A stretch of DNA of 64,000 nucleotides from Candidatus Zhuqueibacterota bacterium (lineage in GTDB: Bacteria; Zhuqueibacterota; Zhuqueibacteria; Thermofontimicrobiales; Sulfurfontimicrobiaceae). Of the stretch, positions 15,454 to 54,654 are shown piece after piece; the stretch's first letter is position 1, and each line of letters starts with the position of its first letter. The notes beneath the pieces are model-generated. The model did no database searches. It worked only from the letters and a program-made list of their open reading frames with translations, and was not told the origin of the DNA. The stretch covers positions 1 through 64,000 of the forward strand of contig JAFGMA010000045.1 of the NCBI GenBank assembly GCA_016927835.1, in the 5' to 3' direction. The position numbers and the translations under genes were made by a program.

Positions 15454-15638
15454 GCCTGGCACACAAATAATTTGAGCAACAAATTTTTTGGGTGTTAGAT
15501 CCCCCCCATTCACCAGTTTAATCCCCGCTTCTTAATTCCCGACTGCTACAAAATTTCTACAGATTTATTCCTTAAATTTGAGTGTTAAATTAGCGCTGAA
15601 TTCTGTTTTATCCGATGATGTATCTAAGGAGTACACGA

Positions 15639-20708: not shown

Positions 20709-20785
20709 CCAACGCTATTTCTGGCAAAATACAGCTTGATGAACGTCGCTTATGATTGAAATGCTTAAAATACAAGGATACGTGA

Positions 20786-22087: not shown

Positions 22088-23007
22088 AACGACAAAAAAA
22101 GCGAACGCTCAATCGAGTAGAAAACTTCTACGGCTATTTATTCGTTTCACCCTGGATCGTCGGATTTCTGTTCTTGACGCTGGGACCCATGCTTTTTTCA
22201 CTGGCGCTTTCTTTTAGCGATTGGAACGCTCACGAATCGCTAAATGCACATGCGTTTGTTGGATTTGATAATTATAAAGAATTGCTTTCGAAAGATCCCC
22301 TCTTCTGGAAAGCGCTTTTCAATACGAGCTATTACGTGATATTTTCCGTTCCCATCGGCATTATTTTCGCCCTGCTCTTGGCGCTATTGCTCAACCAGAA
22401 AATTAAAGGCATCTATGTTTTTCGAACTATTTTTTATATTCCTTCTCTCGTGGCTGGTGTAGCCACGGCTATTCTCTGGCGCTGGATGTTTAATCCCGAT
22501 TTCGGGGTGATTAACTCGGTCCTGAAAATGGGCGGGATCAAAGGACCAGCCTGGTTACAGGATCCTGTGTGGGCAAAACCCGCGCTCATTATAATGAGCC
22601 TGTGGGGAGTTGGCGGAACGATGCTCGTTTTCCTGGCAGGGCTACAAAATATTCCAGGTCATCTATATGAAGTCGCCAAAATCGATGGTGCTTCGCGCTG
22701 GCGCCAATTCTGGCATGTCACCATTCCCATGCTCACCCCGACCATCTTCTTCACCCTGATCATGGGAATCATCGGTTGTTTCCAAATTTTCACATCTGTT
22801 TACATCATGTCTCCCGATAGTGCGGGCGGCACCAAAAATAGCCTGCTGTTTTACGTTCTATACCTGTATCGCAAAGGATTTGTCGAATTTGAAATGGGAT
22901 ATGCCAGCGCGCTGGCGTGGATATTATTCATTATCATCCTTACGTTAACCCTTTTCGTTTTTAGATCGTCAGCACTTTGGGTTTATTACGAGGGAGAGAA
23001 AAAATAA
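22078..23007 (+). CDS. Sugar ABC transporter permease (MalF-like), paralog of 10706-11629
   Basis: EAA loop LYEVAKIDGASRWRQFWHVTIPMLTPTIFFT; overlaps SBP stop. Confidence 0.93.
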   Translation: MEMKRQKKRTLNRVENFYGYLFVSPWIVGFLFLTLGPMLFSLALSFSDWNAHESLNAHAFVGFDNYKELLSKDPLFWKALFNTSYYVIFSVPIGIIFALLLALLLNQKIKGIYVFRTIFYIPSLVAGVATAILWRWMFNPDFGVINSVLKMGGIKGPAWLQDPVWAKPALIIMSLWGVGGTMLVFLAGLQNIPGHLYEVAKIDGASRWRQFWHVTIPMLTPTIFFTLIMGIIGCFQIFTSVYIMSPDSAGGTKNSLLFYVLYLYRKGFVEFEMGYASALAWILFIIILTLTLFVFRSSALWVYYEGEKK

Positions 23008-23873
23008 TGCAATCGGCTATTCTGTCCAAAACTCAAAGCCTGTCTTTTGAACGCAAAGCGGGCAAATTCATTGGCGTCAGCATCTTAACGGTACTCAGCG
23101 CAATCTTCATCATTCCGTTCATCTGGTCGCTGTCGGCGTCGTTCAAGGATTTGCTTCAAATCTATGCAATTCCACACAAGTGGATCCCCAATCCGATCTA
23201 TTTTGAAAATTATGCCAATATTTTCGAGTTGCTGCCCCTTGCCCGGTTCTTTTTGAATACAGTGATTATAACATCACTCTCGCTCATCGGCAACATTTTT
23301 TCATGCTCATTGGTTGCATATAGCTTTGCACGCCTCAGGTGGCGCGGCAAACATGTTCTGTTTATTATCCTGCTAAGCACAACCATGTTGCCGTCGCATG
23401 TTACGCTAATTCCACAATTTTTGATTTTTCAAAAACTTGGATGGCATGATACCTACTTGCCGCTCATTGTCCCGCATTGGTTGGCAGTCAGCGTCTTCAA
23501 TGTGTTTTTGCTGCGCCAGTTTTTTCTTACCATCCCTCTCGAATTGGAGGATGCTGCCAAAATAGATGGCTGTTCTTTTCTCAGAATCTTTTTCCAGATT
23601 ATGATTCCCCTGGCAAAGCCCGCAATGGCGACTATCACCATCCTGTCGTTCATCGGTCATTGGAATATGCTTTTATTACCATTGATTTATTTGCAGTCCT
23701 ATGAAAAATTTCCGATTGCGGTGGGCATCAACATGTTTAAAGATATGTATAGCGCACTACCGCATTATGTAATGGCTGCCTCGATGTTATCGCTGATACC
23801 GATCTTGATCTTATTTTTTCTGGCACAGAAACAGTTTGTCAAAGGCATTATGCTCTCAGGAATTAAAGGCTGA
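23007..23873 (+). CDS. Sugar ABC transporter permease (MalG-like), paralog of 9840-10703
   Basis: ELEDAAKIDGCSFLRIFFQIMIPLAKPAMATITIL; start codon overlaps previous stop (TAATG). Confidence 0.93.
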   Translation: MQSAILSKTQSLSFERKAGKFIGVSILTVLSAIFIIPFIWSLSASFKDLLQIYAIPHKWIPNPIYFENYANIFELLPLARFFLNTVIITSLSLIGNIFSCSLVAYSFARLRWRGKHVLFIILLSTTMLPSHVTLIPQFLIFQKLGWHDTYLPLIVPHWLAVSVFNVFLLRQFFLTIPLELEDAAKIDGCSFLRIFFQIMIPLAKPAMATITILSFIGHWNMLLLPLIYLQSYEKFPIAVGINMFKDMYSALPHYVMAASMLSLIPILILFFLAQKQFVKGIMLSGIKG

Positions 23874-23881
23874 TGCGGTGA

Positions 23882-25603
23882 ATGGCTCTAATAACGCGGC
23901 AGGTTTTCGGAGAAGAATCGATGATAATCGATCTCGACAAGGTTCCCTTCAGCAAATTCGGTTCGTATCTCATGCTTTCCACTGCACGACAGCGAGTAGA
24001 TGATCCGAACCTCTACATTCGATCGGCACATTCAGGCAAAGGGATTGCGCATATTTTCAAAATCACTTTAGCCAGACACGGTGAAAATATCCCTTATAAA
24101 ATCACCGCAACGCCATGGCAGGTGAGACTTGAAAGTCAAAACGGCGCAGTCGAGTTCTGTTTCAAAAATGTGAATACGATTGCGTTTACGGGCACGAATG
24201 TCGACATCTGTTTTGAATTGTTCGAAGTCGGCAGCTTCGGAAACGCAATACAGCGTTCACCCCAACATTGCCAGGTGCTCGCCTGGAATAATCGCCTGGT
24301 ATTTCTATTTTCGGCAATCGAAGGCGAATTGCAGATCGACGCGCCGTGGATATCTGAAAAATGTCGCTGGGTTAAACTCATCTTCTCCGGGGAAAAAATT
24401 GGCGGGCTTATCGAAGCCGGGCGCCGGGAAATAGTGCCGCGGATGATGCAGGCGGATTTCCCGGCTATTAAACGAGATGCGCAAAAAGAGTTCGAAGCAT
24501 GGCTGGCGAAAATGCCCCCTGTACCCGATACCTATTTAAATTCGGCTAAATTAGCGTGGTATATTTTATGGGAAAGCGTAGTTGAGCCCGACGGTTTTTT
24601 CAAGCGCCCGGCAATGCTTTCTTCAAAAAACTGGATGCCCAGCGTCTGGGCGTGGGACCATTGCTTCAATGTACTCGCCCTGGCAAGATCGGCACCGGAA
24701 CTCGCCTGGGATCAATTCATGCTCATGTTTGATGCTCAGTTGCCCAATGGCGCGCTGCCGGATGCGATTAATAATACATCTCTAACCACGGTTTTTACCA
24801 AACCACCTATTCATGGCTGGACACTTCGGGTATTAATGGAGCGCAGCAAATGTGTCGACGGGCAAAAACTGCGTGAAATTTATGCTCCGCTAAAACGTTG
24901 GACTGACTGGTGGTTCGAAGAAAGGGATGATGACGCCGACGGCATCCCGCAATATAATCACGGAAACGACAGCGGTTGGGATAATGCGACTGTTTTTGAT
25001 GAAGGCGCGCCCATCGAATCACCTGACCTGTCTGCCTACCTGATCGTCCAGATGGACGTACTCGCGACGATTGCAGCAGAACTTGGCTTTGGGGCGGCTG
25101 CAAAAAACTGGCAAAGCCGCGCGGATCAACTGCTGAGAAAGATGCTTGATCATTTCTGGCAGAAAGATGGCTTCGTGAGTAAACACAACCGAACGCATCG
25201 CGTTGTGAATGCGCCATTGAGCCTTTTGAATTTCATGCCACTCGTGCTGGGAACTCGGCTTGAACGAAACTATCGAGATCATTTGGTGAAAAAGCTTTTT
25301 GCGTCGGGCTTTGTCACAGACTTCGGACTTGCAACTGAATCTACAGAAAGCAAGCCCTTCAATCCGAAAGGCTATTGGCGCGGTCCGATATGGCCCTCTC
25401 CGCTGCTGATACTGGTCGATAGCTTGCTCCGAATCGGCAACAAAGCTGAAGCCACAGAGATTGCTCATAAATTTTGTAATATGGTGAATGGGCAGCCAGG
25501 AATATACGAAAATTACGATCCGGTTACCGGGGAAGGATTGTGCGATCCGGCTTACACCTGGACAGCATCCGTTTTTTTAGTGCTGCTTGAAGATTTTTTT
25601 TGA
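23882..25603 (+). CDS. GH63/trehalase-like (alpha/alpha)6-barrel glycosidase
   Basis: NWMPSVWAWDHCFNVLALA, GNDSGWDNATVFDEGAPIESPDLSAYLIVQMDVLA, NPKGYWRGPIWPSPLLILVDSLLR, YENYDPVTGEGLCDPAYTWTASVFLVLL. Confidence 0.82.
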   Translation: MALITRQVFGEESMIIDLDKVPFSKFGSYLMLSTARQRVDDPNLYIRSAHSGKGIAHIFKITLARHGENIPYKITATPWQVRLESQNGAVEFCFKNVNTIAFTGTNVDICFELFEVGSFGNAIQRSPQHCQVLAWNNRLVFLFSAIEGELQIDAPWISEKCRWVKLIFSGEKIGGLIEAGRREIVPRMMQADFPAIKRDAQKEFEAWLAKMPPVPDTYLNSAKLAWYILWESVVEPDGFFKRPAMLSSKNWMPSVWAWDHCFNVLALARSAPELAWDQFMLMFDAQLPNGALPDAINNTSLTTVFTKPPIHGWTLRVLMERSKCVDGQKLREIYAPLKRWTDWWFEERDDDADGIPQYNHGNDSGWDNATVFDEGAPIESPDLSAYLIVQMDVLATIAAELGFGAAAKNWQSRADQLLRKMLDHFWQKDGFVSKHNRTHRVVNAPLSLLNFMPLVLGTRLERNYRDHLVKKLFASGFVTDFGLATESTESKPFNPKGYWRGPIWPSPLLILVDSLLRIGNKAEATEIAHKFCNMVNGQPGIYENYDPVTGEGLCDPAYTWTASVFLVLLEDFF

Positions 25604-26187: not shown

Positions 26188-26301
26188 TTACGATCTCTCT
26201 GTTGTATATGCAAACACGATTACAGCACTCCATCCTGAGTGTTTAACAATAAACACGATATGTTACATTAGCCAAAACTAACCATAGCAAGGTATTTGAA
26301 A

Positions 26302-27468
26302 ATGGCACTTGATTATAAGAATCCGATTCCCCTTTATCTTCAAATTATTGAAGATATTCAAGAAAATATTTTAAAAGGAGTTTATAAACCAAACACGCCA
26401 TTGCCTTCATTAACCGAATTGTGCAAAATGTATGATGCCGGACGCAGCACGATCCACCGCGCATTGCAAACACTCATTTCATCGGGCAAAATCTACAGCC
26501 GTGTTGGCAAAGGATTGTATGTCAATGATTCCCATCCTCTTACGCCATTTCCAAAATTGAAAAACATCATCGTTGTGACCAATAGTCTGACGAATGTGAC
26601 CAATACCTATATTTCCGGCTTCGAGCAGGCAGCAAAAGAGTACGAGTGTTATTTGCACATTTTATTGGCGCAAGAAGAGCGCGGCAACCATGACGTCATG
26701 CTGAAAAATATTTTAAGTCTGGATTCCAAAACTATTGTCTTTTTGAATGGTATCCGAACCAGCGAAGATCAGGCTTTGGTTGATATGATGTTTGAGGCAG
26801 GATTGACCCTTGTGTCACCGTATTATACCCAGGACAAACGCATCATATTTATTGGCGTGAATCCTGAAACCATTGGTAAAATGGCAACCAATCACCTGAT
26901 TAAACTGGGCTATCAACGAATCGGCTATGTAGGACCTATGTCCGAAGAATCCCAGCCGTCCCATAAATTGAAATTACGGGGATACAAAAGCGCGCTATCC
27001 GAAAATAATCTCAATTTCAATCCTAATTTGGTCATCAATTTATCGAATCTTCAGATTACGGGAAATAAAAAAGATATTCCGATTTACCAGGAGAAATTAA
27101 ATGCATATATCAACCAGGCTATCAAGAACGAGCAAATCAATCTAGAAAATCGACCGGATGCTATTTTTGCTTACAATGATTTTATCGCATTCGCGCTGAT
27201 TGAAGTACTAAGAAAACACAACTACTATGTTCCGAAAGATATTGCTATTGTTGGTGATGGTGACTATGAATCGATGAGTCACTTAACTTCCGGATTTCTT
27301 ACCTCTGTCCACAGACCTGTTTTATCCATCGCACGAGAAAGTATCAGATACATACTTGGCAAAAAAACAATCTCCAAAAAATCAGGACCGAAAAATATTT
27401 ACCTCACACCGCAGGTTGTTATCAGGGAATCCTGCGGCAGCCTGAGCTTCGACACTGAAAATATATAA
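26302..27468 (+). CDS. Transcriptional regulator: GntR-type winged HTH + LacI/periplasmic-binding-type sensor domain (AraR-like architecture)
   Basis: PIPLYLQIIEDIQENILKGVYKPNTPLPSLTELCKMYDAGRSTIHRALQTLISSGKIYSRVGKG; C-terminal PDAIFAYNDFIAFALIEVLRKHNYYVPKDIAIVGDGDYE. Confidence 0.9.
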   Translation: MALDYKNPIPLYLQIIEDIQENILKGVYKPNTPLPSLTELCKMYDAGRSTIHRALQTLISSGKIYSRVGKGLYVNDSHPLTPFPKLKNIIVVTNSLTNVTNTYISGFEQAAKEYECYLHILLAQEERGNHDVMLKNILSLDSKTIVFLNGIRTSEDQALVDMMFEAGLTLVSPYYTQDKRIIFIGVNPETIGKMATNHLIKLGYQRIGYVGPMSEESQPSHKLKLRGYKSALSENNLNFNPNLVINLSNLQITGNKKDIPIYQEKLNAYINQAIKNEQINLENRPDAIFAYNDFIAFALIEVLRKHNYYVPKDIAIVGDGDYESMSHLTSGFLTSVHRPVLSIARESIRYILGKKTISKKSGPKNIYLTPQVVIRESCGSLSFDTENI

Positions 27469-27606
27469 GGTGATGTATTAGAAAATTTTTAATGATACAA
27501 AACCAGTCTCAATTAGGATCGCTTTGCAGTTATTGTGTAAGATTTTCTTTAATTTCAATCATTGAAGAAAAAGCCCAGAAAATTGACTAAATTGGAGGCA
27601 TTCGAC

Positions 27607-30315
27607 ATGATAATCGAACGGAAGCCGTTCTGCTGGAAGTTTATTCTCTATTCATGGATTCTGCTGCTCCTATCTACGAATCTGCTTCTGGCGGGTGCAA
27701 CAGGAAAAATATCAGGCAGAATAACCGATGCCAGGACAGGGGAAGCGTTATCCGTTGCAGAAGTTTTGCTCACCCATATCTATGTAGGCAATCAAGCGGT
27801 TGAAATGTCCCCACCAAAGGGTGCTGCTGCTGATATGGATGGTCGGTTTGTGCTACTGAATGTGAATCCGGGAAAATATAACGTTCAAGTCAGGATGATG
27901 GGGTATACCTCGAAAATCATTCCTGGTGTCAGAGTATCCATCAACCGGACCACGCCGCTGAACGTGTCGCTAGATCCAACCGTCATCGAAGGGGAAGCGG
28001 TAACCGTAACCGCGCCGAGAGATTTGATAAAGCGCGATATGACCTCATCGATCAAAACAGTATCCGCCGATGATATGGAAAAATTCAATCTGGAAAGCGT
28101 GGGCGCGGTGGTTCAATTGCAGCCCGGAGTGGTTGAAGGGCATTTCAGAGGCGGGCGTGCCGATGAAGTGATCTACCTGATCGACGGCATTCAGTCGGGG
28201 CTCTCCCTCCACGCGGATGCGGTTCAGGAAATCGAAGTGATCAGCGGAACCTTCAATGCTGAATATGGCAAAGCGATGAGCGGCATCGTCAACGTGGCTC
28301 CTAAAGAAGGCAGTGCAACGTATACCGGCAGCCTGAAACTCTTCACATCAAATTGGCTCACCAACTATGACTACATCGGTCTGGATAAATCAGACATATT
28401 TCATGGAACGGAGGCGCGCTTTCACCTTGCCGGTCCCATTCCATTTACTCGCAACAACATCAAGTTCTATATGCATGGAACGACATCCGATAGCAAGGGG
28501 CTTTATTACGGAATTCGCAGGTACAACATGTGGGATATGAGCCTGATATCCACCAGCATTCCAAGGGAAGACTGGATCGATATCCATACCGGCGATATGG
28601 CAAAAATCCCAATGAGTCAAAGCCAGTCATATCAGTTGATGACGAACCTGGTATGGCGTGCGCCTTTAAATCTCAAGCTGAGTTTGCTTCACCAGTATCA
28701 GTATTCCGAGGGACAGGCAGGCTACAATCACAGCTATAAATATACACCGGATCGAACAAATCAGAACTGGTCTGAGAACCAGAGCATTGCATTTGCCATA
28801 ACCCATACACTGGGCGAAAGAGCATTCCACGAATTCAGAGCGCTGTATGCCGACTATTGGAGCCAGAGCTCGCGATACAAAGATCCGTATGACAATCGAT
28901 ATGTTCATGACAAATACAGCACGTCCATGGGGGGATTTGCTACAGGTGGGAATGATAAAGGTTTTTCGTACAACGATAACAAACGCCTTGAGTTGAAGTA
29001 CGATTTGACTTGGCAGCTCACCAGCCATCATGAAATAAAACTCGGTACAGATTTCGTTAAACTGGATTTTGCGCCCTATAGCTTTACCCTGCAAAATAAG
29101 TGGAAAAATACTGAATATGAAGCCACCCGTTATGAACCGGTTATCTGGGCGGATACAACCATTTATTCAAATCGTTATGAAAAAACACCTTATGAATTTT
29201 CCGCATATCTTCAGGATAAATCGGAATACAATAAGCTGGTAATTAATTATGGATTGCGCTACGATTGGTTCGATCCGAAAACGATTTATCCCACTGATAT
29301 CCGCAATCCGGCAAACCGTATCGTTGGCTCGCGCAAAACCGAATACGCCGATGCCGAGCCGCAATATCAATTGAGTCCGCGTCTCGGATTATCGTACCAG
29401 GTGGCAGACGTCGCCGCGCTGCATTTCAGCTATGGGCATTTCTTTCAAATTCCCGGATACGGCTCAATGTATCAGAATCCGGATTACAAAATTGCCTCGG
29501 TCAATTATGGATCCACAATTGGCAATCCCAATATAAAAGCCGAAAAAACCGTGAAATACGAACTTGGATTGCAATTGGAGGTTCTCGAAGGAATGGTGCT
29601 GAATACGACTGTATTCTACCATGATATCTATAACCTGGAAACCATCCGCCCGATTGAAACCTATGACGCCATTATTTTCGGCTACTACGTCAATAAAGAC
29701 TATGCCATGTCAAAAGGTTTAACCCTCGGTCTGGATTATATTACACAAATGCTCAGTTTCAATCTCGCGTATACACTGCAATATGCCGAAGGCAATGCCA
29801 GCGAACCAGGCAGCAATTTTTACAAAGCCGCGGATAACATCGATCCGATTTCCAAATTTGTGCCGCTCGATTGGGATCAGCGGCACACATTTAATATGGC
29901 AGTGGGCTACAATACACCCAAATTCGGTGCATCGTTTATTTCCAGGCTTGGCTCTGGTACGCGATATACGCTGGAACCTTATGATAAAAGCCGTCTGGCG
30001 CTCATTAATATCCCCGAAAATAGCATGACCAAGCCCAGGACAATTTATGCGGATTTAACAGCATATTACAACCTGACTTTTCTCAAAATGGGCAACATCA
30101 CGCCGCAACTCGGATTCTATATCTACAACATTTTCGATCACCGGAATGAGATAGTGGTGTATAACGATAGCGGACGTTCCGGTTCGACCCTAACGATTGA
30201 GGATGCTCGGGATGACTATATCAGCACCTTCACAACCATAGAAGATCTGTATTATCGACCCAATTATTATAGTGCACCAAGATCATGGAAACTGGAATTA
30301 GGTATTTCTTTCTAA
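27607..30315 (+). CDS. TonB-dependent receptor with carboxypeptidase-regulatory-like N-terminal domain
   Basis: GKISGRITDARTGEALSVAEVLL; NVQVRMMGYTSKIIPGVRVSINRTTPLNVSLDPTVIEGEAVTVTAPRDL; LYYRPNYYSAPRSWKLELGISF; start at ATG after GGAGG. Confidence 0.9.
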   Translation: MIIERKPFCWKFILYSWILLLLSTNLLLAGATGKISGRITDARTGEALSVAEVLLTHIYVGNQAVEMSPPKGAAADMDGRFVLLNVNPGKYNVQVRMMGYTSKIIPGVRVSINRTTPLNVSLDPTVIEGEAVTVTAPRDLIKRDMTSSIKTVSADDMEKFNLESVGAVVQLQPGVVEGHFRGGRADEVIYLIDGIQSGLSLHADAVQEIEVISGTFNAEYGKAMSGIVNVAPKEGSATYTGSLKLFTSNWLTNYDYIGLDKSDIFHGTEARFHLAGPIPFTRNNIKFYMHGTTSDSKGLYYGIRRYNMWDMSLISTSIPREDWIDIHTGDMAKIPMSQSQSYQLMTNLVWRAPLNLKLSLLHQYQYSEGQAGYNHSYKYTPDRTNQNWSENQSIAFAITHTLGERAFHEFRALYADYWSQSSRYKDPYDNRYVHDKYSTSMGGFATGGNDKGFSYNDNKRLELKYDLTWQLTSHHEIKLGTDFVKLDFAPYSFTLQNKWKNTEYEATRYEPVIWADTTIYSNRYEKTPYEFSAYLQDKSEYNKLVINYGLRYDWFDPKTIYPTDIRNPANRIVGSRKTEYADAEPQYQLSPRLGLSYQVADVAALHFSYGHFFQIPGYGSMYQNPDYKIASVNYGSTIGNPNIKAEKTVKYELGLQLEVLEGMVLNTTVFYHDIYNLETIRPIETYDAIIFGYYVNKDYAMSKGLTLGLDYITQMLSFNLAYTLQYAEGNASEPGSNFYKAADNIDPISKFVPLDWDQRHTFNMAVGYNTPKFGASFISRLGSGTRYTLEPYDKSRLALINIPENSMTKPRTIYADLTAYYNLTFLKMGNITPQLGFYIYNIFDHRNEIVVYNDSGRSGSTLTIEDARDDYISTFTTIEDLYYRPNYYSAPRSWKLELGISF

Positions 30316-30354
30316 ATAACTCAAGTGCGTTTGTCACATTCAGCGAGGTGAGGA

Positions 30355-33300
30355 ATGATAATTCAAATAAAATCTAACTATATATCTATTTTCATACTGG
30401 CTTTTTTGCTCGTTCTCGGCAGCGGTTCCCTGTTGGCGCAAGGCGTACCCTTGATTGGCGAGCAAAAAATACCGGATGATCCACCCGCAGAGACAACCGC
30501 CCGACGCTGGTGGTATATGGACGGGAATCGCGTCTGGATGAAATTTTTCAACGACGGCATGCTCGGTGACCATCCAGATCCGTTGGCATCGATTTGGCCT
30601 AAAGGCTCGGGTTTGGATATGAATGACGGTCTGGCGGTTATGGTAAGTGCCAGGATAGCGGTCGACCGCGATGGGATTCCGCTGCTGGACGCCGTCAGCT
30701 TCAATCCTGCCCAGGGCGATACCTTTTTGTATTTTTGCCAGACGTATTACAGGGAAGATATGGACATCGATCCCACCGGACAATTCAATTGGGGTTTTTA
30801 CCCGGTCCGCGGTTATCTGAATCTGGATCAGGAAAAACCGGCGATCAGCAACGATTCGAATTCATGGCCTCTCGGCGGTTGGCCCGATGCCCCTGATTTC
30901 ACGGATCCCGATGGTAATACCGAGTGGAATGGCTACTTCGGTCGGGGCAAAACCAACGCGGATGTTGAATCATATTTTGTCACCAACGATGCCTGGGATT
31001 TGGAATATCAGCAACCGGAGATGAAAATCCACTTTTATCCCCGGCCCGGTGATTTGATCGCCGACGGGCGCTATCACTGGGGCGGCATCGGCGCACGTAT
31101 CGGCGCGCGCTTGTTTCAATGGTCCCATCCGTTGGCTCAGGATTGTATCTTCATTCATTATGATGTCGCCAATATTTCAGATTATAATCATGATAATATT
31201 GTGCTCGCCTTTTATATCGATAGCGGAATTGGCGACGATCCGCAGGATGATTACAGTTACATGGATAAAACCCTGGATATGTCCTGGATTTTTGATAGCG
31301 ATGGCTTAGGTGAAGGAAACGTGCCGGTGGGTATCATGGCATTTGCGTTTCTGGAAAGCCCGGGTATTCCTTATGATAATGAAGATAATGACGACGATGG
31401 CATTATCGATGAAGATCGGGGACCTAATCCGGGCGTTTGGACCGAAAATCCGCTCGAAGGACCCAATGGGACTCTGATTGATCAGGCAAAATTCGAATTC
31501 TATTATTCACCGAGAAAAGTCGGACCCCACTGGACTGGTGACGAAAACCAGAACTGGCGCGCCTGGCAGGATCTGGATGGCGATGGCATCTTCAATCCAT
31601 CCAAAGATGAGATCGGTGATGATGTGGGAGCTGATGGTGTAGGTCCGCAGGATCCCAACTACTATGGCGCGGATGAAGATGGTACCGAAGCCAACGGAAT
31701 CCCGGATGACGGCGAACCCGAATTCGGACGCACCGATAAAGACGAATCCGATCAAATCGGTCTAACGTCATTCCAGGCGTGGAGCCGTCAAACAGGAAAT
31801 GCACCGTGGTACAGAATGTTTTGCAACGATAGCACGTTTTATGAATTAACCGCAAATTATGAATTCAATCCGAATTTTACTGAAGTCGGGAACGTCCTGA
31901 ATGTATTTGCATCAGGACCCATTCCTCTGAAAAACTGGACCAAAGAGCGTTTCTCCCTGGCTGAGTTGCATTCCTGGGATAGACCGATTGATGATCAGGT
32001 TAACTGGTCTGCCCCGGCATTATTTCAATTGAAAAAAACCGTTCAAAGAATTTATAATGCCAATTATCGCTTCGCAAAGCCGCCCGACAGACCGGTGCTC
32101 AAGGCGATCCCCGGCGATGGCATGGTGACGTTATCCTGGGGCAATATCGCTGAAAAATCTAAAGAACCCTTCTATAACTATATCGAAGATTTTGAAGGCT
32201 ATAAAATCATCAAATCCACCGAACCTTATTTTGAAGATGCGCGAGTTATCACCGATGGCTATGGCAGTCAGATCTTTTTAAAACCGATCGCGCAATATGA
32301 TAAAATTGACGATATTAAGGGCTTTGCCGACTGGGCGGTCTATAATGGCGTATCGTTTTATCTGGGTGAGGATACCGGCTTAAGGCACTCCTACGTCGAT
32401 CGCAACGTAACGAACGGGCGAACATATTATTATGCAGTAGTGGCTTATGACTTTGGATGGGAGAAAGACGGCTTGTCCCCCAGTGAAAATACCGCTACTA
32501 TAACCCTGAACCAGGCTGATAGTGTCGTATTCATCGACCGCAACTGTGCCATGGTGACACCGCGCGCGTATGCTGCCGGCTATATCAGAAGCGAAAAACA
32601 TGAAGAAGGTTGGCTCTCAAAACAAGGGACAGGACTTGTACAACTGGATTTGATCGAACCCGACCAATTCAAGGGCGGACACGAATACCTGCTGAAATTT
32701 GATGTACAAACAACCGCTTATGATCCCGAAAAAGCAAGAACCCTTTATCGCTTGTCGGACGATAAAGTATATTCCTATTACAATTCAGGCTATTTCGTAA
32801 TAGATGTCACCGATTCGTCGCTGTTGGATACAGTGCTCTTCGAACCGCTGGCAGACGATGAAGCCAAGTTCGAATCCCCAATGTTCGACGGCATGCGACT
32901 ACGGGTACAAAACGATATTGAACCCAAATACCAGGGAAAAGCCTGGGAAGATTCTGATGATAATAAGGTGCTCGTAAGCGTGCAAACCAATAATATCAGC
33001 GATGCGCCATGGGACTTCAGTCTGCATTTCGTAGAAGACTCGGTCTATACGACGCCGCTGGTTAATACCGGACCGGGCGGATATTTCCTGCCTAATATGA
33101 AGATAAATGTATTTGCTTTAAATCATAACTTCTTCCATAAAATATTTAACGGGACCGACTCAGTGATGGTCCCGGATACGGCTGCTGTGATTGTCGTAGA
33201 CGCTGACACTAACGGTCATTACGAGTTGAAGCCTGAAACTCCGAGTTCTGATTATTTCATCATCGGCGAATACACCACAAGATACAGAAAGGCATGGGGA

Positions 33301-33789
33301 AGCAGATCGGATAAAGACCTGGTTAGCTACGCCTACACCGTAAAATTTCCGGGACGCCTGCCCCGGGTTGGATCCGTGCTGAACATCTATACCCGGCGCC
33401 CGTTCACGCCGACAGACGCTTACAAATTCTCCCTGACCGAAGGCGCGCAATTCGATATGGCGACAGCAAAATTCGGATTGAATAATATAAAAGTGGTACC
33501 CAATCCTTATATTGCCACAAACCTGATGGAGCCCAAAGTCAGGCAGGGCTTGAATCAGCGAAGGCGCTTGATGTTCACTCATCTACCTGCCAAATGCAAG
33601 ATCAGCATTTACACAGTCAGTGGTTATCTGGTTGATGAAATCGACGTCGATAACGTGGTCGATGACGGGCATGCTATGTGGGATATGCTGACCAGAGAGG
33701 GGCTGGAACTCTCTTATGGGCTTTATATTTATCGCGTTGATGCACCGGGCATTGGTGAGATAATGGGAAAATTTGCTGTCGTAAAATAA
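30355..33789 (+). CDS. Large acidic secreted protein with Asp-rich (EF-hand/thrombospondin-3-like) segments, fibronectin-like region and C-terminal sorting-like domain
   Basis: Signal peptide; DNEDNDDDGIIDEDRGP, DLDGDGIFNPSKDEIGDD, DEDGTEANGIPDDGEPEF; C-term IKVVPNPYIA...YGLYIYRVDAPGIGEIMGKFAVVK. Confidence 0.7.
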   Translation: MIIQIKSNYISIFILAFLLVLGSGSLLAQGVPLIGEQKIPDDPPAETTARRWWYMDGNRVWMKFFNDGMLGDHPDPLASIWPKGSGLDMNDGLAVMVSARIAVDRDGIPLLDAVSFNPAQGDTFLYFCQTYYREDMDIDPTGQFNWGFYPVRGYLNLDQEKPAISNDSNSWPLGGWPDAPDFTDPDGNTEWNGYFGRGKTNADVESYFVTNDAWDLEYQQPEMKIHFYPRPGDLIADGRYHWGGIGARIGARLFQWSHPLAQDCIFIHYDVANISDYNHDNIVLAFYIDSGIGDDPQDDYSYMDKTLDMSWIFDSDGLGEGNVPVGIMAFAFLESPGIPYDNEDNDDDGIIDEDRGPNPGVWTENPLEGPNGTLIDQAKFEFYYSPRKVGPHWTGDENQNWRAWQDLDGDGIFNPSKDEIGDDVGADGVGPQDPNYYGADEDGTEANGIPDDGEPEFGRTDKDESDQIGLTSFQAWSRQTGNAPWYRMFCNDSTFYELTANYEFNPNFTEVGNVLNVFASGPIPLKNWTKERFSLAELHSWDRPIDDQVNWSAPALFQLKKTVQRIYNANYRFAKPPDRPVLKAIPGDGMVTLSWGNIAEKSKEPFYNYIEDFEGYKIIKSTEPYFEDARVITDGYGSQIFLKPIAQYDKIDDIKGFADWAVYNGVSFYLGEDTGLRHSYVDRNVTNGRTYYYAVVAYDFGWEKDGLSPSENTATITLNQADSVVFIDRNCAMVTPRAYAAGYIRSEKHEEGWLSKQGTGLVQLDLIEPDQFKGGHEYLLKFDVQTTAYDPEKARTLYRLSDDKVYSYYNSGYFVIDVTDSSLLDTVLFEPLADDEAKFESPMFDGMRLRVQNDIEPKYQGKAWEDSDDNKVLVSVQTNNISDAPWDFSLHFVEDSVYTTPLVNTGPGGYFLPNMKINVFALNHNFFHKIFNGTDSVMVPDTAAVIVVDADTNGHYELKPETPSSDYFIIGEYTTRYRKAWGSRSDKDLVSYAYTVKFPGRLPRVGSVLNIYTRRPFTPTDAYKFSLTEGAQFDMATAKFGLNNIKVVPNPYIATNLMEPKVRQGLNQRRRLMFTHLPAKCKISIYTVSGYLVDEIDVDNVVDDGHAMWDMLTREGLELSYGLYIYRVDAPGIGEIMGKFAVVK

Positions 33790-33798
33790 AATCTATAG

Positions 33799-33894
33799 CC
33801 TCCCGCAGTTCTGCTTCTGATGTGAAGACGGTGCAGTTGGTTGGTTTCAATTTCTTTCGGTTTCAGGCTTGCTTTGTATTTTAACGCTGCGGGA
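33799..33894. repeat. Inverted repeat enclosing about 76 nt between genes
   Basis: CCTCCCGCAG (33799-33808) / CTGCGGGAGG (33885-33894), perfect 10 bp, followed by TATTTT. Confidence 0.5.
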
Positions 33895-34041
33895 GGTATT
33901 TTAAAAATTGCCCGAAATGATATGCGCTTGAATTCAAGGCGCTGCATTGAAAGCAGAAAAAATGTCAGCGACGGACTGCACTGAATTTTGCATATTCTCA
34001 GATTGTTCTTTTGCCTTTAATTCAAATACAAGAAGGGAATT

Positions 34042-35115
34042 GTGATGAATAATAAACCTGTTTTTAAAATCGTGATTGCGTTGCTTATTTTCAGCTTTGC
34101 CCAATCTGATGCTATAAGCAAAGATAAGCCGGTGAAAATGGGAACGACAGCCGCAAGCTTCCTCGAGATCGGCGTGGGAAGCGCCGCTGTAGGAATGGGT
34201 AGCGCCTATACGACGATGTGTGAGGATTTGAGCGCAATCTATTGGAACCCATCTAAATTGGCACACATCCGGCAAATCGAAGGCATGTTTATGCATCAAC
34301 CGTGGCTGGTTGATATCAATTTCAGCTTTCTGGGGGGCGCGCTGCCCTTGCCCGGCATCGGCGTCGTCGGATTAGGCGTAACCATGCTGAATTCAGGCGA
34401 TATTGAGGAAACCACACTCGATTTTCAGGATGGCACCGGCTCCTATTATGATTGCTCCGATATAGCGCTCAGCTTGTGCTTTGCACGGGAAATGACCGAC
34501 AACTTTTCTGTGGGTTTCGCCGGGAAATATATCACCCAGCGCATCTCTACCATGAAAGCCTCCGCTCTGGCAATCGATATGGGTGTGTATGTGGTAACTC
34601 CGTTTTTCGCTCGCCCCGATGGTAATGTAAAAGGTATGCAAATCGGGATGTGTATTTCTAATTATGGCGGAAAAATGAGAATGCTCGGAGATGATACTTA
34701 TATTGCCGTCGATCCGGATCTGAATAATGGCGGCAACAATGAACTCATCGAAGCTGATTATCGGACTCAGGCGTACAACCTCCCCTCAGTTTTCAGGGTG
34801 GGAATTGCGTATGACTTTTTTAACACCACCCACAATCGGGTCACCTTCGCTGCCGATGCTCTCCACCCCAACAATAACTATGAATACATTAATACGGGCT
34901 TGCAGTATCAGCTTTCGATGTGGGACGGATTGGTGCTAAAACTGAGAGGCGGGTACAAAACGCTCTTTCTCGAAGATTCCATGCAGGGGCTGGCACTGGG
35001 ATTCGGACTGAAATACAGGCTGAGGGGGATGGCTGGTTTCCGGTTCGACTATGCGTTTAGCGACATGAACGAGCTCGGAAAAGTGAGTAGCTATACGCTT
35101 TCGCTGATTTTTTAA
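34042..35115 (+). CDS. PorV/PorQ-family outer-membrane beta-barrel protein
   Basis: MGTTAASFLEIGVGSAAVGMGSAYTTMCEDLSAIYWNPSKLAHI; beta-barrel pattern through C-terminal SYTLSLIF. Confidence 0.85.
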   Translation: MMNNKPVFKIVIALLIFSFAQSDAISKDKPVKMGTTAASFLEIGVGSAAVGMGSAYTTMCEDLSAIYWNPSKLAHIRQIEGMFMHQPWLVDINFSFLGGALPLPGIGVVGLGVTMLNSGDIEETTLDFQDGTGSYYDCSDIALSLCFAREMTDNFSVGFAGKYITQRISTMKASALAIDMGVYVVTPFFARPDGNVKGMQIGMCISNYGGKMRMLGDDTYIAVDPDLNNGGNNELIEADYRTQAYNLPSVFRVGIAYDFFNTTHNRVTFAADALHPNNNYEYINTGLQYQLSMWDGLVLKLRGGYKTLFLEDSMQGLALGFGLKYRLRGMAGFRFDYAFSDMNELGKVSSYTLSLIF

Positions 35116-35129
35116 AATCTGATCGGTAT

Positions 35130-36605
35130 ATGAAAAATTCTATCAGTAAATTCATGATTTTTATTATCGGCTGCCTTGCGCTCTCCAATTGCTCAAACGA
35201 TTCATCTGTGCAGGAGCAGCGGAAAAGCCGTATTCTGGCGATTATCGCCGACGACACCTTGTATGTGGATGATTTCATCAAGCGCTGCGAATATACACCT
35301 CGACCGAATTATTGCCAGGAAGACGGCTATCATGACAAGAATATCTGCCTGAATTCGCTGATCGCCGAGAAAGTATTTGCGCTGGAAGCAGGCGCTCATA
35401 ATCCCCTGACCCGGCAAAAGGCTTTCCAGGCGCGGCTTAAAGGCATAAAAGAGCAATTGATGCGCGAACAACTCGTTAACGATATGGTCATCGAACAAAT
35501 CAAAATACCGGAGGAGGAAATTCAGGCAGCATACCTCCACTCCCGGAAAACCGTGCATACACAGGCGATCTTCATCCCCGAAACCTGTGATGCAACCGTC
35601 ATTTACCGCGACGCCCGGAATGGGATGCCACTCGATGAACTTGCCCGTAAATATGCCGGTGTGTCCGAGCCCATAAAAAATGACATCAAATGGGGACACA
35701 TTGATGAGGCTGCCCAAAATGCGATTTTTGCCGATAGCGTCAAGCAGGGAACCATCCTGCACCCGACGAAAATTGAAGGCGGCTTTCGAATGATTAAAAT
35801 CACCGGATGGACCGAAGAGATCGAAATGAGTTCGATGAATCGTAACCAGCAAATGGAGAACATAAAAAAGCGGTTGATGGACTTTTACATTAAAAAATCG
35901 TATCAGGAATTCGCTCAAAATGTCATGAAAGGCAAGCGCCTCGATTTTTACCCGCAAGGCTGGCACAAGCTTGTGAATGCACTGCAACCGCTATATGCTG
36001 AAAATACGTCCCGACTGCCAGAAAATAATTCGAAAACCGGCAATATGGAAAACGCCATGCAGCTTTCAGCATCAGAAGGCTCAATGCCGCTTTTGAAGAT
36101 TGATGATGATGTTTGGACCATTCAGGATTTTTATGATGCTATTTTGGTTCATCCGCTCGAAATAAGCCAGAGAGCAATCACAGCGGAAAATTTTCAGCAA
36201 CGCTTACGGGCTGCTATCGCCAGTCTGATGACCGATACGTATCTCACTGAGTTGGCTTATCAAAAGCATTACGATGAAGCGTACACCGTCAACCATACTC
36301 TTAAGCAGTGGAAAATCCATTATCTTTTTCAGTATCATCGGGATGAACATCTGAAAAAACAGGGTTTCACCGGATCGATTACGAAAGATTTTTTCGACGC
36401 TTATGATAACTACCTCACACCCTATTTTGAGACCCTGAAAGCGAAATACGACGTCAGTATCAGGTTTAACATCGAGGCACTCAAAAAAGTCGAACTGACT
36501 CGCATCCCGCTGATGACACACAAAACCAAGGGACCATATCAGCAGGTTGTTCCGCCGTTTCCGTTGGTAACGAATTCTGTAAAAGCAAATTACAAACGAA
36601 TGTAA
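35130..36605 (+). CDS. SurA/PrsA-like peptidyl-prolyl isomerase lipoprotein (parvulin-like)
   Basis: Lipobox IGCLALSNC; VDDFIKRCEYTPRPNY...IPEEEIQAAYLHSRKTVHTQAIFI...GMPLDELARKYAGVSEPIKNDIKWGHID. Confidence 0.6.
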   Translation: MKNSISKFMIFIIGCLALSNCSNDSSVQEQRKSRILAIIADDTLYVDDFIKRCEYTPRPNYCQEDGYHDKNICLNSLIAEKVFALEAGAHNPLTRQKAFQARLKGIKEQLMREQLVNDMVIEQIKIPEEEIQAAYLHSRKTVHTQAIFIPETCDATVIYRDARNGMPLDELARKYAGVSEPIKNDIKWGHIDEAAQNAIFADSVKQGTILHPTKIEGGFRMIKITGWTEEIEMSSMNRNQQMENIKKRLMDFYIKKSYQEFAQNVMKGKRLDFYPQGWHKLVNALQPLYAENTSRLPENNSKTGNMENAMQLSASEGSMPLLKIDDDVWTIQDFYDAILVHPLEISQRAITAENFQQRLRAAIASLMTDTYLTELAYQKHYDEAYTVNHTLKQWKIHYLFQYHRDEHLKKQGFTGSITKDFFDAYDNYLTPYFETLKAKYDVSIRFNIEALKKVELTRIPLMTHKTKGPYQQVVPPFPLVTNSVKANYKRM

Positions 36606-37001: not shown

Positions 37002-39071
37002 ATGAAACGTCTAATGTTAGTTCTTGCCGTTTTATTAGTTTTCACCGTCTCCGCTTTTGCGCAGTTGTGGGATTATGTGCTTACCGGTGACGCAATGCCA
37101 ACAAAATTCTGGCGCTATGAAGGTTTTGACAACTGGGCTGAATGGTCGTTTGCTGATTCTGCCGGCGAACGGATGGATTTTGTATTTAAAGTTGCAACCG
37201 ATCCGGATGATCCTGCAAATAACGTGCTTCAGTGCGTGGATCTGTATAACCTCGGTGAAAACGTTTCGATGGCGATCATGACCGGTGATCGTCTGGCAGA
37301 AAAATCTTATGATAAAGCTACCTTCCTGTTCCGTGCGCGCTGCATCAAACCGGAAGAAGTTCCTGATAGCCTGGAAGTGGATGTCCAAAAATGCCGCCGA
37401 TATCTCGGTTGGGATATCTGGGTCGGCGGGACCTTTTTCCAGATTCAGTTTGAAACCGGCGAAGACAGTCAGGATGAATACCCCAACTGGATCCGCGCGG
37501 CACGGATGTGGTCAGATTCAGCACGCACCCGAAATGACGTGGTCGATAAATTCGCCTGGAATACATTCCGATTCACCGCTGAAGTCAACGACGACAGCAT
37601 GGGCATCGAGGTAAAAGGTTACCTGAATGAGGATCCCGAACCGATTCTATCTGGCTATTACAAGGAATCGTATAATGCAGAAGACACCCAAACCGCTTTC
37701 TTCTTCGGCGACGATCGCACCAGCGGTTGGAATATTAATGAACTCGGTGTGAGCAATGGCGGCGCCAAAGCATGGTTCGACTGGGTTGCAGTCGCCTGGG
37801 GTGAAATTCTTCCCCCGGGAACGCCTCTGCCATTAAACGTGAAAGCCGACGGACCTGATGGAAATCCTGCACCCAATGAAGGCTGGGTATGGCTGTTCGA
37901 CGGCAGCGAAAACCTGATTGAAGGCGCAACCAACAGCTATACGCGTATCGCTATTTCGAATGAATTCCCTGGCTGGGATGTCGGCAATTCATACAATAAT
38001 AGTTTCATGTATTATTACAAGGAACCCGTAGCAATCGAATTGCTATACAATTCCATGTGCTACCATGTTGAAGATGTCGATGTGCCGGGAAACGCCGTTC
38101 TTGAAATCGTAGATGATACAGATCTGAATCCTGTTTCCTTCGTTATAGGACCCTATACCAAAGGCGAGTTCTCTACCGATCAAGGAACCGTGCTCTGGCG
38201 TGCCCGCAACCTGACTGAAGAAGAAGGCGTCCGTGGCAGAAGAGGCTGGGCATCCACGGCGAATGTGCCCGGATTTGCTTTCGGCGATATCAAAGCTGAG
38301 TCTGGGTATCGGGGCAGTGATGGTCTGCGTCCCTGCACCATTGAATTTTTCCATAACTCCACCAATTCAACCGGGCGGTATCCCTTTACGGTTGTCGAAG
38401 ATGTTTATGTACCAAATGCATGGCTGTCATCCATTGGCGGCACTATGGATGCTTTCGAATGGCACACGTATCGGATGACCTGGGATCGCAGCCTGCCGGA
38501 TTCAGTCTGCTGCAAGCTCTATGTAGATGAAAATCCGATTCCGGCGCTGGAAAATCAACCCTGGCCCGCCGATCCGTCTCCTGAAGAATTTGGCTTCCTG
38601 TTTGGCGATCAACGTACAAATAACATCGGCTACGATGAAACCGGCGCATCGGATGGTAAAACCGGTCAGGCATGGGACTATGTCGCGGTCAATTTGGGAA
38701 ATGCCTATGCACCTGGTGATGGCGATATCCCTGAAGGATTGATCGTCGATAAGATCACCTCGGTTGAATCAGAAAATGGAATGTCAGTCGAGAAGTTCGC
38801 ACTTATGCAGAACTACCCGAACCCATTCAACCCGGCAACCACCATTCGCTACAGCCTGGATAATGAAGTTCAGGTTGAATTGAGCGTTTTCAACGTACTG
38901 GGTAAAAAAGTCAAAATCCTGGTGAATGCTAAAAAATCCGCTGGTTACCATACGCTGGAATGGGATGGCACCGACTTGAACGGAAACCGTGTCGGATCGG
39001 GTGTCTATTATCTCAAATTGAAAATCGCTGAAGGCAATAGTGAAATCCGCAAGATGGTGATGATGAAGTAA
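37002..39071 (+). CDS. Secreted protein of unknown function with C-terminal T9SS-type sorting domain
   Basis: SD TGGAGG; signal peptide; FALMQNYPNPFNPATTIRYSLDNEVQVELSVFNVLGKKVK...GVYYLKLKIAEGNSEIRKMVMMK. Confidence 0.78.
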   Translation: MKRLMLVLAVLLVFTVSAFAQLWDYVLTGDAMPTKFWRYEGFDNWAEWSFADSAGERMDFVFKVATDPDDPANNVLQCVDLYNLGENVSMAIMTGDRLAEKSYDKATFLFRARCIKPEEVPDSLEVDVQKCRRYLGWDIWVGGTFFQIQFETGEDSQDEYPNWIRAARMWSDSARTRNDVVDKFAWNTFRFTAEVNDDSMGIEVKGYLNEDPEPILSGYYKESYNAEDTQTAFFFGDDRTSGWNINELGVSNGGAKAWFDWVAVAWGEILPPGTPLPLNVKADGPDGNPAPNEGWVWLFDGSENLIEGATNSYTRIAISNEFPGWDVGNSYNNSFMYYYKEPVAIELLYNSMCYHVEDVDVPGNAVLEIVDDTDLNPVSFVIGPYTKGEFSTDQGTVLWRARNLTEEEGVRGRRGWASTANVPGFAFGDIKAESGYRGSDGLRPCTIEFFHNSTNSTGRYPFTVVEDVYVPNAWLSSIGGTMDAFEWHTYRMTWDRSLPDSVCCKLYVDENPIPALENQPWPADPSPEEFGFLFGDQRTNNIGYDETGASDGKTGQAWDYVAVNLGNAYAPGDGDIPEGLIVDKITSVESENGMSVEKFALMQNYPNPFNPATTIRYSLDNEVQVELSVFNVLGKKVKILVNAKKSAGYHTLEWDGTDLNGNRVGSGVYYLKLKIAEGNSEIRKMVMMK

Positions 39072-39301: not shown

Positions 39302-41416
39302 ATGTTGGCTGCCTTTCAAAATTCATGTCGCCGTTTGTTCTTTTTATGCCTTTGCCTGATATTTTTGATCCGCAACGGATCGTCGGCTTTCGGCAGATTG
39401 GGAGACACAAGCCCGATACGAGCTTCAAATATTCAACTAATCGTAGGCGACAACGCTACCGAGACCGAGCTGCGGATTGCCGGCATTTTGAGACAACGCA
39501 TCTTGTGGTTCAGTCGCGTTTCGATAGACATTTCAACAGCGCGAACCACCGGCAATAGCGATTTTCTGATTTATCTTGGCAGGGCAGGTCATCACAGAAT
39601 ATTGGACTCACTGTGTGCTACGCACAACATTACCCTGCCAGGACGTACCAGATCCGCTCCCGAAGGGTTTGCAGTCAAATCGTTGCGCCTCGATAATATC
39701 CCGACATGGATCGCCGTGGGAACAGATCACCGCGGCGCACTCTATGCTATCGGCGAGCTTTTGCGGCATATCACTTTTGAACCGGATTGCATTTTATGCG
39801 ACAGCTTCGAGGTGCGTACCGCCCCGGCATACCGTTATCGCGGCTTCGAAGCCCGACAGGGCGAAGCCATGCAGAAAATTACCCATGCCAGGCTCTGGGG
39901 TGACGAAGATAAGTTTCGCCTGAATATTGATTATGCACTTGCCGGCGCCAATTGTTTCTACACGGAGTGGGAACCGGGACCGGTGTACCATTTCATCAAA
40001 TCATTCGACCTGATGACTACCGATTATGGTGTGCGTCCGAATTACCTCGGCAGACCATTTCCGGATGCGTGGAAAGCTAAAAATTTGCCACCCAAAGAAG
40101 GCACAGGCTGGATTTGTCCCGGCATCCCGGAAGCTCGTGAAGCCGCGCTCGAATATTGGACCGACATTTTCAGGAAGAAGGCTCAACACGACATTTTGCG
40201 ATTTTATGCCGGAGATCCCGGCGGCTGCCGCGGTGAATGCTGCAAACCGTGGGGCAAGACGTTCATGCACCTGTGCCGGGAATTTGCCGAACGCCTCTCA
40301 GAAACGCATCCGAACACCCAGGTCTTTATTGCCAATCAACATACGGACAATGCAGGGGATCAAGCAATCTTCGATTATCTGAATCAAACACCTCGTTCCT
40401 GGCTGAAGGGATTGGCGTATGGTCCGGGCAGCAATGCCATGTCAACATTTCACCGCGATGAATTGCGGGAAGATTTGTTCGAATTTCCGGGCAACGGAAC
40501 GGTGAATCGATACCTGGCTGAAACGCTCAAACAGCTCCCGTGTGACATGCAGCTCATGCATTACTCTGACATCACGCATTGGTTCCGCTCCCAATATGCG
40601 GTTGAATATCCCGAGCCGCATTTGATCAAAGCTTACGGTCGCCGCACATTCCACGCTCGCCCACGCGCGCTATACCGGATATTTCAATCAATCATGCCGT
40701 TTTCCGAAGGCGACATCATTTACTGCGAAGGCTACCACGATGAATTCAACCAGTATCTCTGGTGTCGATTATTATGGGATCCCTGCCGCGAACTTGAAGA
40801 TATCATGCATGAATATTGCCAGCTCCATTTCGGAAAAGCAGCCGCAGACTTGATGTGCAAAGCCCTCTTCCAACTCGAAAAAAATCTGGAGGCTCCCCTT
40901 GCCGATAATGACGGAATCGAGACCTACTACGTGCTGGTAAGCCAGGCGGGCAGGCGCATCCCGAAGCATTTGATTGAAAAAAATTATCGCTGGCAGTTGC
41001 ACCAGCAGAAAGCCGCGCTCGATCGCTATAATCAATTGAAGCTTCAGCGGGAAGTATTCAAAGAGCAGCGTGTCCGCGAAGCACTGAAATTCGCTCTGGA
41101 GTCAAAAAAATATCTTGCGGCGATCGAAAATGCGCTGACGATCATTTCTGAACCGGCGGAAACACCGCAGATGGCAAAATTACGCGAAGAAGCCCGGTTG
41201 TTGGGAGAGGAAACAGATCGGCTCTTCGGCGTCAGAAACGTTGGCTATTTCCGCCTGGATGTGCCGTTTCGGGACTTGCCTGGTTTATTGGAAATGCTAA
41301 AACAAGCCAGATCGAGCAAATCGAATTCCAGGCGCAAAGAGTGCATCATTTCTGCCATTCAAATTACCAATAAACCGACTGAAGTGGGCAGCATCTCCTG
41401 GAGCTACGTTCAGTGA
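39302..41416 (+). CDS. Putative GH20/GH67-type glycosidase (N-terminal GH67_N/GH20b-like domain + TIM-barrel-like domain)
   Basis: ATETELRIAGILRQRIL...FLIYLGRAGHHRIL..GTDHRGALYAIGELLRHI; GYHDEFNQYLWCRLLWDP. Confidence 0.6.
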   Translation: MLAAFQNSCRRLFFLCLCLIFLIRNGSSAFGRLGDTSPIRASNIQLIVGDNATETELRIAGILRQRILWFSRVSIDISTARTTGNSDFLIYLGRAGHHRILDSLCATHNITLPGRTRSAPEGFAVKSLRLDNIPTWIAVGTDHRGALYAIGELLRHITFEPDCILCDSFEVRTAPAYRYRGFEARQGEAMQKITHARLWGDEDKFRLNIDYALAGANCFYTEWEPGPVYHFIKSFDLMTTDYGVRPNYLGRPFPDAWKAKNLPPKEGTGWICPGIPEAREAALEYWTDIFRKKAQHDILRFYAGDPGGCRGECCKPWGKTFMHLCREFAERLSETHPNTQVFIANQHTDNAGDQAIFDYLNQTPRSWLKGLAYGPGSNAMSTFHRDELREDLFEFPGNGTVNRYLAETLKQLPCDMQLMHYSDITHWFRSQYAVEYPEPHLIKAYGRRTFHARPRALYRIFQSIMPFSEGDIIYCEGYHDEFNQYLWCRLLWDPCRELEDIMHEYCQLHFGKAAADLMCKALFQLEKNLEAPLADNDGIETYYVLVSQAGRRIPKHLIEKNYRWQLHQQKAALDRYNQLKLQREVFKEQRVREALKFALESKKYLAAIENALTIISEPAETPQMAKLREEARLLGEETDRLFGVRNVGYFRLDVPFRDLPGLLEMLKQARSSKSNSRRKECIISAIQITNKPTEVGSISWSYVQ

Positions 41417-41522
41417 TGCAAATTATGCTGCCCTCTCGATATATGTCAAGATGGCATTTTGATGGAAATTTTAGTGTCAATCTGCTGCCGAAAATCGAAA
41501 TACGAATCACCGTGGAGGACGC

Positions 41523-45026: not shown

Positions 45027-45209
45027 ATCGATGCGCGACAGGCTTGCCCCCAAATGCTTTTATCGGGGAAGCATTCGGGCATGACAGAACCGGATGAGTA
45101 CTTTCTGATTTTTTTTTGAATTTCAAAAATCAATGCAAAATCAAAAGCACTAAGCCCGTTCTGGTTCCCCTTCCCTGTCATTCAGCGCGTGTCCGAAAAC
45201 TCGAAAAAT

Positions 45210-45311
45210 TGTCATTGCGAGGCGTTTTTTGCCGGGGGTGCCCAACCGAATCAATCCCCTGATAAAACGGCTGAGATTGCTTCGTCGCAAAAAACGCTCC
45301 TCGCAATGACA
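45210..45311. repeat. Palindromic TGTCATTGCGAGG...CCTCGCAATGACA element
   Basis: TGTCATTGCGAGGCGTTTTTTGC (45210-45232) pairs with GCAAAAAACGCTCCTCGCAATGACA (45287-45311). Confidence 0.8.
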
Positions 45312-45376
45312 GCTCAAAGGTACTTCTCGGACAGACACTAAATACTATTCATGCAATTCGAATCGGAGGTAACTCA

Positions 45377-48847: not shown

Positions 48848-48894
48848 CGGAAATCCATTGGAATAAATGCATTCAAGCAAACGCCGAGGTTCAA

Positions 48895-52560: not shown

Positions 52561-52626
52561 CAGCAACAGCAATGCACGAATTGCACAGTGCCCGTTTTTA
52601 TCCCACAAGTTTCGAAAGGCTAACTC

Positions 52627-54594: not shown

Positions 54595-54654
54595 CTAATT
54601 CTCAAAAATAGCTATTTTGCCGCTGGCTTTATAATCCTGGAAACGGAGCACTAA

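Follow-up and report, generated by a model that had tools for sequence, protein, structure and literature searches.

The SusCD/RagAB systems of Bacteroidota combine a TonB barrel carrying a CarboxypepD_reg domain with a surface-exposed partner, the SusD lipoprotein, and are present as many paralogs, often within glycan loci. TonB-dependent receptors of the BtuB-BtuG type have a surface lid that is unrelated to SusD and is itself a lipoprotein. A different pairing is found in the type IX secretion system (T9SS), where secreted proteins with a type B C-terminal domain (CTD), as in SprB-SprF and PG1035-PorP, are matched with their own FadL-type barrel, which is thought to anchor them, so that the holding of type B cargo by cognate PorP/SprF barrels is a precedent for a surface protein kept in place by a private barrel (PMC9143113). 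The PorV/PorQ proteins of the T9SS attachment complex form a further group of barrels, among which PorV has an established role as cargo shuttle in Porphyromonas gingivalis (PMC10202324). Finally, Rhodothermus marinus has an alginate utilisation locus in which the order is tonB, hypA (with a T9SS type A sorting domain) and hypB (PorV/PorQ), the latter two being named as hypothetical genes in a paper on alginate lyases (PMC9530828).

The locus considered here lies in a stretch of 64,000 nucleotides (the window) of contig JAFGMA010000045.1 of a Candidatus Zhuqueibacterota bacterium. It contains a TonB-dependent receptor (TBDR), a 1144-residue sorted protein that will be referred to as ASP, and a PorV/PorQ-family barrel, which together are a recurring three-gene module. 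The module resembles SusCD/RagAB in its type of TonB barrel with a neighbouring surface-exposed partner, in its many paralogs and in its frequent glycan context, but the partner is a large sorted protein instead of the SusD lipoprotein, the TBDR fails the SusC model and a PorV is added. With BtuB-BtuG it has in common a surface partner other than SusD, while BtuB-BtuG lacks a PorV. Like the type B systems it places a secreted protein beside its own barrel; the barrel is however of the PorV/PorQ family, the cargo has a CTD other than type B and a TonB receptor invariably belongs to the set. The barrels belong to the same sequence family as PorV/PorQ of the attachment complex (NF033709; 6h3i chain F), but they are many per genome, score below the equivalog cut-offs and are each tied to one cargo. 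The order tonB-hypA-hypB of the alginate locus is identical to that of the module, although the publication gives a list of genes without recognising these three as a module (PMC9530828). A search of the open-access literature found no earlier description, and the module is apparently undescribed.

The window locus and its gene families

Five adjacent genes, all on the plus strand and separated by 94, 40, 253 and 15 bp, were confirmed where a preliminary description of this DNA had placed them. The features of the locus are the following:

26296..27468, + strand: regulator with a GntR-type HTH (PF00392, E = 3e-14) and a LacI-like sugar-binding domain (Peripla_BP_3, PF13377, E = 5e-23)
27562..30315, + strand: TBDR of the module clade, with signal peptide, CarboxypepD_reg, Plug and barrel; not SusC/RagA
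30355..33789, + strand: ASP, which has a signal peptide, an N-terminal part that varies and contains Asp-rich loops, a segment resembling Fn3 and a sorting domain of the VVPNPY type
33493..33786, + strand: C-terminal sorting domain of ASP (VVPNPY...GKFAVVK), residues 1047-1144
34042..35115, + strand: module-specific PorV/PorQ-family barrel, the proposed private carrier or anchor of ASP (Flavobacterium johnsoniae PorV 6h3i, E = 4e-32)
35130..36605, + strand: SurA/PrsA-like lipoprotein of the parvulin family, an optional accessory
37002..39071, + strand: secreted neighbour of 689 residues whose sorting domain is of the usual T9SS type A, a probable cargo in the same locus
19305..25603, + strand: upstream sugar locus with GH4, extracellular solute-binding protein, two permease-like proteins (assigned by reading the sequence alone) and an MGH1-like glycoside hydrolase
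39302..56802, + strand: downstream glycan-degradation genes, namely two DUF4838, two FG-GAP/carrageenase-propeller-like, one GH42-like and one GH36/melibiase

The window is a carbohydrate locus. Domain scans of its genes returned no SusD, in agreement with the earlier reading of the receptor's surroundings, and the single SusD of the home genome (contig C270) adjoins and pairs with a different TBDR, so that a SusD located elsewhere does not come into question as the true partner. The regulator, initially counted as part of the set, is local to the window locus, since few other modules have one nearby. Upstream of another module (L067, 303-1766) a GntR DNA-binding domain is fused to an extracellular-type solute-binding domain, making an unusual sugar-sensing regulator. 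Another TBDR of the window, at 15615-18086, is of the OMP_b-brl_3 type, adjoins a histidine kinase, lacks a PorV and falls outside the module clade; the window further encodes a large TPR-CHAT protein of 1254 residues (280-4044).

A Pfam scan of the module TBDR identified CarboxypepD_reg, Plug and TonB barrel domains, the latter two complete. The label of SusC-like that it had been given was rejected, since the curated SusC/RagA model TIGR04056, which has a cut-off of 368 bits, gives it a score of 39.8. The assignment of the barrel to the PorV family was instead borne out (192.8 bits with NF033709, PorV_fam; cut-off 90), whereas with the equivalog PorV model NF033710 it reaches 82.2 bits for a cut-off of 250. 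With the latter model the module copies score 63-92, that of R. marinus 81 and the best candidate of the home genome 216. The profile of the barrel family retrieves the solved F. johnsoniae PorV (6h3i chain F) with the E value listed above and TodX only weakly (2e-3), and the window barrel, while matching PorV/PorQ models, gave no match with those of PorP/SprF. AlphaFold2 models of ASP and PorV, built from two sequences only, were uninformative (pLDDT 26 and 30). The best candidate for a general PorV is found on contig C50 (L078, 5450-10170), where the next gene encodes an inactivated M6-metalloprotease-like T9SS protein. PorV-family barrels also open far longer proteins of 639-1400 residues (L088, 4076-8278; L093, 6301-9243; L092, 7840-9759; L096, 6476-9454), and long PorV-headed proteins are seen again in other genomes, with open reading frames that span about 640 and about 980 residues.

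No Pfam family matches the window ASP, no recognised binding domain is present in ASP, and the ASP profile gave only weak matches to Fn3 and sorting domains when compared with the PDB. The Asp-rich segments reported earlier are real (10.2% Asp, and two DxDxDG motifs versus 0.11 expected in shuffled sequences), but they are missing from some family members, so that Ca binding cannot be regarded as a family-wide trait. The N-terminus of the window ASP looks like a normal signal peptide, with ...SLLAQG at its end and no lipobox cysteine. A signal peptide and a C-terminal sorting-type domain are present both in this protein, as had been suggested, and in its relatives. In the ASP family the domain starts with VVPNPY and ends with GKFAIIK, while in ordinary T9SS cargos of the same genomes it starts with NYPNPFNP and ends with KKMLLLK. 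The two classes are cleanly resolved by their profiles, with ASPs scoring about 90-130 bits with their own profile and about 20 with the other; by this measure the ASP sorting domain is a class distinct from the generic one. The domains of the VVPNPY class are those adjoining PorV, in a sample that was picked around PorV and ASP genes and has biased proportions. The curated type A models PF18962 and TIGR04183 do not match the window ASP and match weakly 2 and 5, respectively, of 16 relatives; similarly, the type B model PF13585 does not match it and finds 1 of the 16 at 2e-4. Weak PorZ/PorU matches suggested a likeness with the uncleaved CTD of PorU, which was discarded because it is the generic profile that gives PorU tails the higher score.

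For the lipoprotein, the proposed SurA/PrsA likeness holds for the family, which has SurA_N and rotamase domains (PrsA, E = 1.8e-19; SurA, 6e-15; Rotamase_2 in 9 of 15 members), while for the window copy alone it is marginal, with no match in Pfam and E = 0.097 with NF003356. A parvulin next to a T9SS cargo is in keeping with the finding of a peptidyl-prolyl isomerase together with SprA in F. johnsoniae (PMC9143113).

Recurrence and co-divergence of the three genes

In the home genome, scans detected ASP 37 times and the PorV family 48 times, and many of these matches are side by side. By gene calling in 40 regions, about 20 copies of the module (module-clade TBDR, ASP and PorV together) were counted, several being cut by contig ends. 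Both partners accompany 17 of the 31 ASP-like proteins counted in the home regions and one relative, the remaining 14 corresponding to contig ends, extra tandem ASPs and rearranged sets. When the 42 Plug-domain receptors of the home genome were considered, a PorV was found near 16 of the 17 that have an ASP, the sole exception being cut by a contig end, and near none of the 25 that do not (Fisher p = 1e-10).

Tandem ASP-like genes also exist without TBDR or PorV within the sequence examined, as on contig C427 (L100), where five to six of them encode proteins of about 720 residues that are 64-74% identical. Two close relatives of this array are found beside a TBDR and a PorV on contig C148 (L073), so that the two contigs may adjoin to form one large ASP array. 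On C148 a PorU-type sortase gene is near the module, with a LacI-like regulator in between (L073, 10832-13999). One TBDR and one PorV accompany three ASP copies (73-75% identical) in region L076 (6222-15649), with several surface proteins for one receptor.

Among relatives, ASP was detected in 59 of 60 genomes and, at a stricter limit, in 57 of 61 genomes drawn from the whole phylum. In 40 regions from relatives of the same class, which were selected by ASP and not by PorV, a TBDR lies within 3.5 kb and on the same strand for all 45 ASPs and a PorV does so for 43, one of the two exceptions being at a contig end; in other classes of the phylum the triad is complete in 14 of 14 regions. The gene order thus recurs far beyond chance. 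The PPIase-like gene follows the module in 16 of 45 cases in the class relatives and in 5 of 14 in the other classes, so that of the gene order originally proposed the three-gene core recurs phylum-wide and into Rhodothermota, but its extension to the PPIase applies to only about one-third of the cases. Each genome has at least 9 to 32 matches to the PorV family, while for SusD 37 of 60 genomes have none and the others no more than 5. SprA is encoded in 59 of 60 genomes and in the home genome, which also contains three full-length PorU genes above the cut-off.

A protein search of plasmids gave a single match, to pRMAR01 of R. marinus DSM 4252, on which a TonB-dependent receptor (RMAR_RS14120), a hypothetical protein (RS14115) and a PorV/PorQ family protein (RS14110) are annotated; the ASP and PorV genes overlap. 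The profiles of the window families score 727, 317 and 308 bits on this triad, and all three proteins are nearest to the same module clade, with the module of contig C16 being the closest in each tree. It is also likely that hypA of the R. marinus alginate locus is an ASP homologue.

The trees of the three proteins from 19 modules gave distance correlations of 0.87, 0.81 and 0.83, values that none of 5000 permutations came near, and with 71 triads the trees are nearly congruent (r = 0.82-0.95). Such congruence among paralogs indicates inheritance as a unit without exchange of partners, even where the gene order is rearranged, but it is not proof of contact. Together with the linkage, it lends good support to the earlier idea of a dedicated module in which PorV serves its own cargo. 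Partial correlations calculated on the 71 triads single out the TBDR-PorV pair (0.68) and that of TBDR with the N-terminal part of ASP (0.47), hinting that the receptor may be the hub of the triad, a pattern that noise in the ASP alignment could also generate. The value for PorV and the ASP sorting domain is 0.04, for a short domain with noisy alignment, and the idea that PorV tracks this domain is unsupported.

Proposed mechanism and alternatives

It appears probable, from the linkage, the family assignments, the co-divergence, the distinct CTD and the T9SS core encoded in the genomes, that ASP is exported by T9SS and held at the cell surface by its own PorV, where it captures a substrate for the TBDR. 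The export route, the anchoring, the contact with the receptor and the substrate we infer as follows. ASP would cross the outer membrane through the SprA translocon and be received by its own PorV paralog rather than by the general PorV, to which paralog it would remain bound at the surface through an uncleaved CTD. Placed over or beside the TBDR, it would capture the substrate, to be imported by the receptor with TonB energy, thus filling the role that lipid-anchored SusD has in Bacteroidota. The parvulin lipoprotein, where present, would probably help to fold ASP or to hand it over. In the window the substrate is probably a glycan, given the adjoining hydrolases and sugar importer; the neighbourhoods of other modules are mixed, and sugar is therefore not the general substrate. 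That cognate PorV-like barrels shield CTDs from cleavage has been suggested (PMC10202324). Counting against an uncleaved CTD, those of PorU, which do stay uncleaved, resemble the generic and not the ASP type. The near-zero partial correlation of PorV with the ASP sorting domain, the absence of a recognised binding domain from ASP and the tandem ASP-like genes that have no TBDR or PorV in the sequence examined are further points against the mechanism.

An unlikely alternative is that the PorV paralog acts as a shuttle only, carrying ASP from SprA to PorU, where the CTD is cut and ASP becomes covalently attached to lipopolysaccharide like ordinary type A cargo, with PorV outside the final complex. 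PorV is known to work in this way in P. gingivalis (PMC10202324), and such a shuttle would agree with the three full-length PorU genes of the home genome, one of them near the C148 module, and with the weak type A CTD matches of some ASPs. However, ordinary type A cargos appear to share the general PorV, so that a private copy for each ASP would be left unexplained, PorV co-diverges more with the TBDR than with ASP, and the sorting domains of ASP form a class of their own.

Rather improbable is a surface structure that does not serve uptake, with ASP as an adhesin or coat, the TBDR as a sensor or as a platform for secretion or assembly, and the variable ASPs and their tandem arrays used for recognition. 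The arrays with 64-74% identity and the many modules with mixed neighbourhoods could be so accounted for, but plug and barrel of the TBDR are both complete, a sugar importer and glycan-degradation genes surround the window module, and the same gene order is found in the alginate locus of R. marinus (PMC9530828). That the PorV paralog is a FadL-like diffusion channel fed by ASP, while the TBDR serves a different ligand, is very improbable: PorV is in the FadL fold class and TodX profile matches exist, but they are weak, T9SS PorV is matched far better (E = 4e-32 versus 2e-3) and the pairing with a CTD-bearing protein is strict. Adjacency of the genes without any functional link can hardly be maintained, being refuted by conservation over the phylum and into a second one, with the Fisher test and the congruent trees on the same side.

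Within the preferred reading of ASP as a PorV-held capture protein, a wider proposal can be advanced tentatively, its chances being judged slightly short of even. A stable machine of TBDR, PorV and sorted protein would have replaced SusCD as the main uptake system of the phylum, and be present also in Rhodothermota, with PorV as a structural subunit joined to the receptor, that is, a part of the secretion apparatus turned into a part of an importer. If the mechanism is as proposed, the module would represent a second solution for the uptake of large nutrients, in which the partner reaches the surface by type IX secretion and is kept there by a barrel of its own instead of a lipid, and a direct link between type IX secretion and TonB-dependent import. 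It would also explain the dozens of PorV-family genes and the few or no SusD in genomes of the phylum, and provide a function for hundreds of proteins annotated as ‘hypothetical’ or ‘PorV/PorQ family’.

R. marinus is cultured, and with the plasmid triad and the gene order of its alginate locus it makes the module testable now. After the triad, pRMAR01 encodes a peptidoglycan-recognition protein and a serine hydrolase (L201, 13249-15775), from which peptidoglycan fragments are suggested as a possible substrate of that module.
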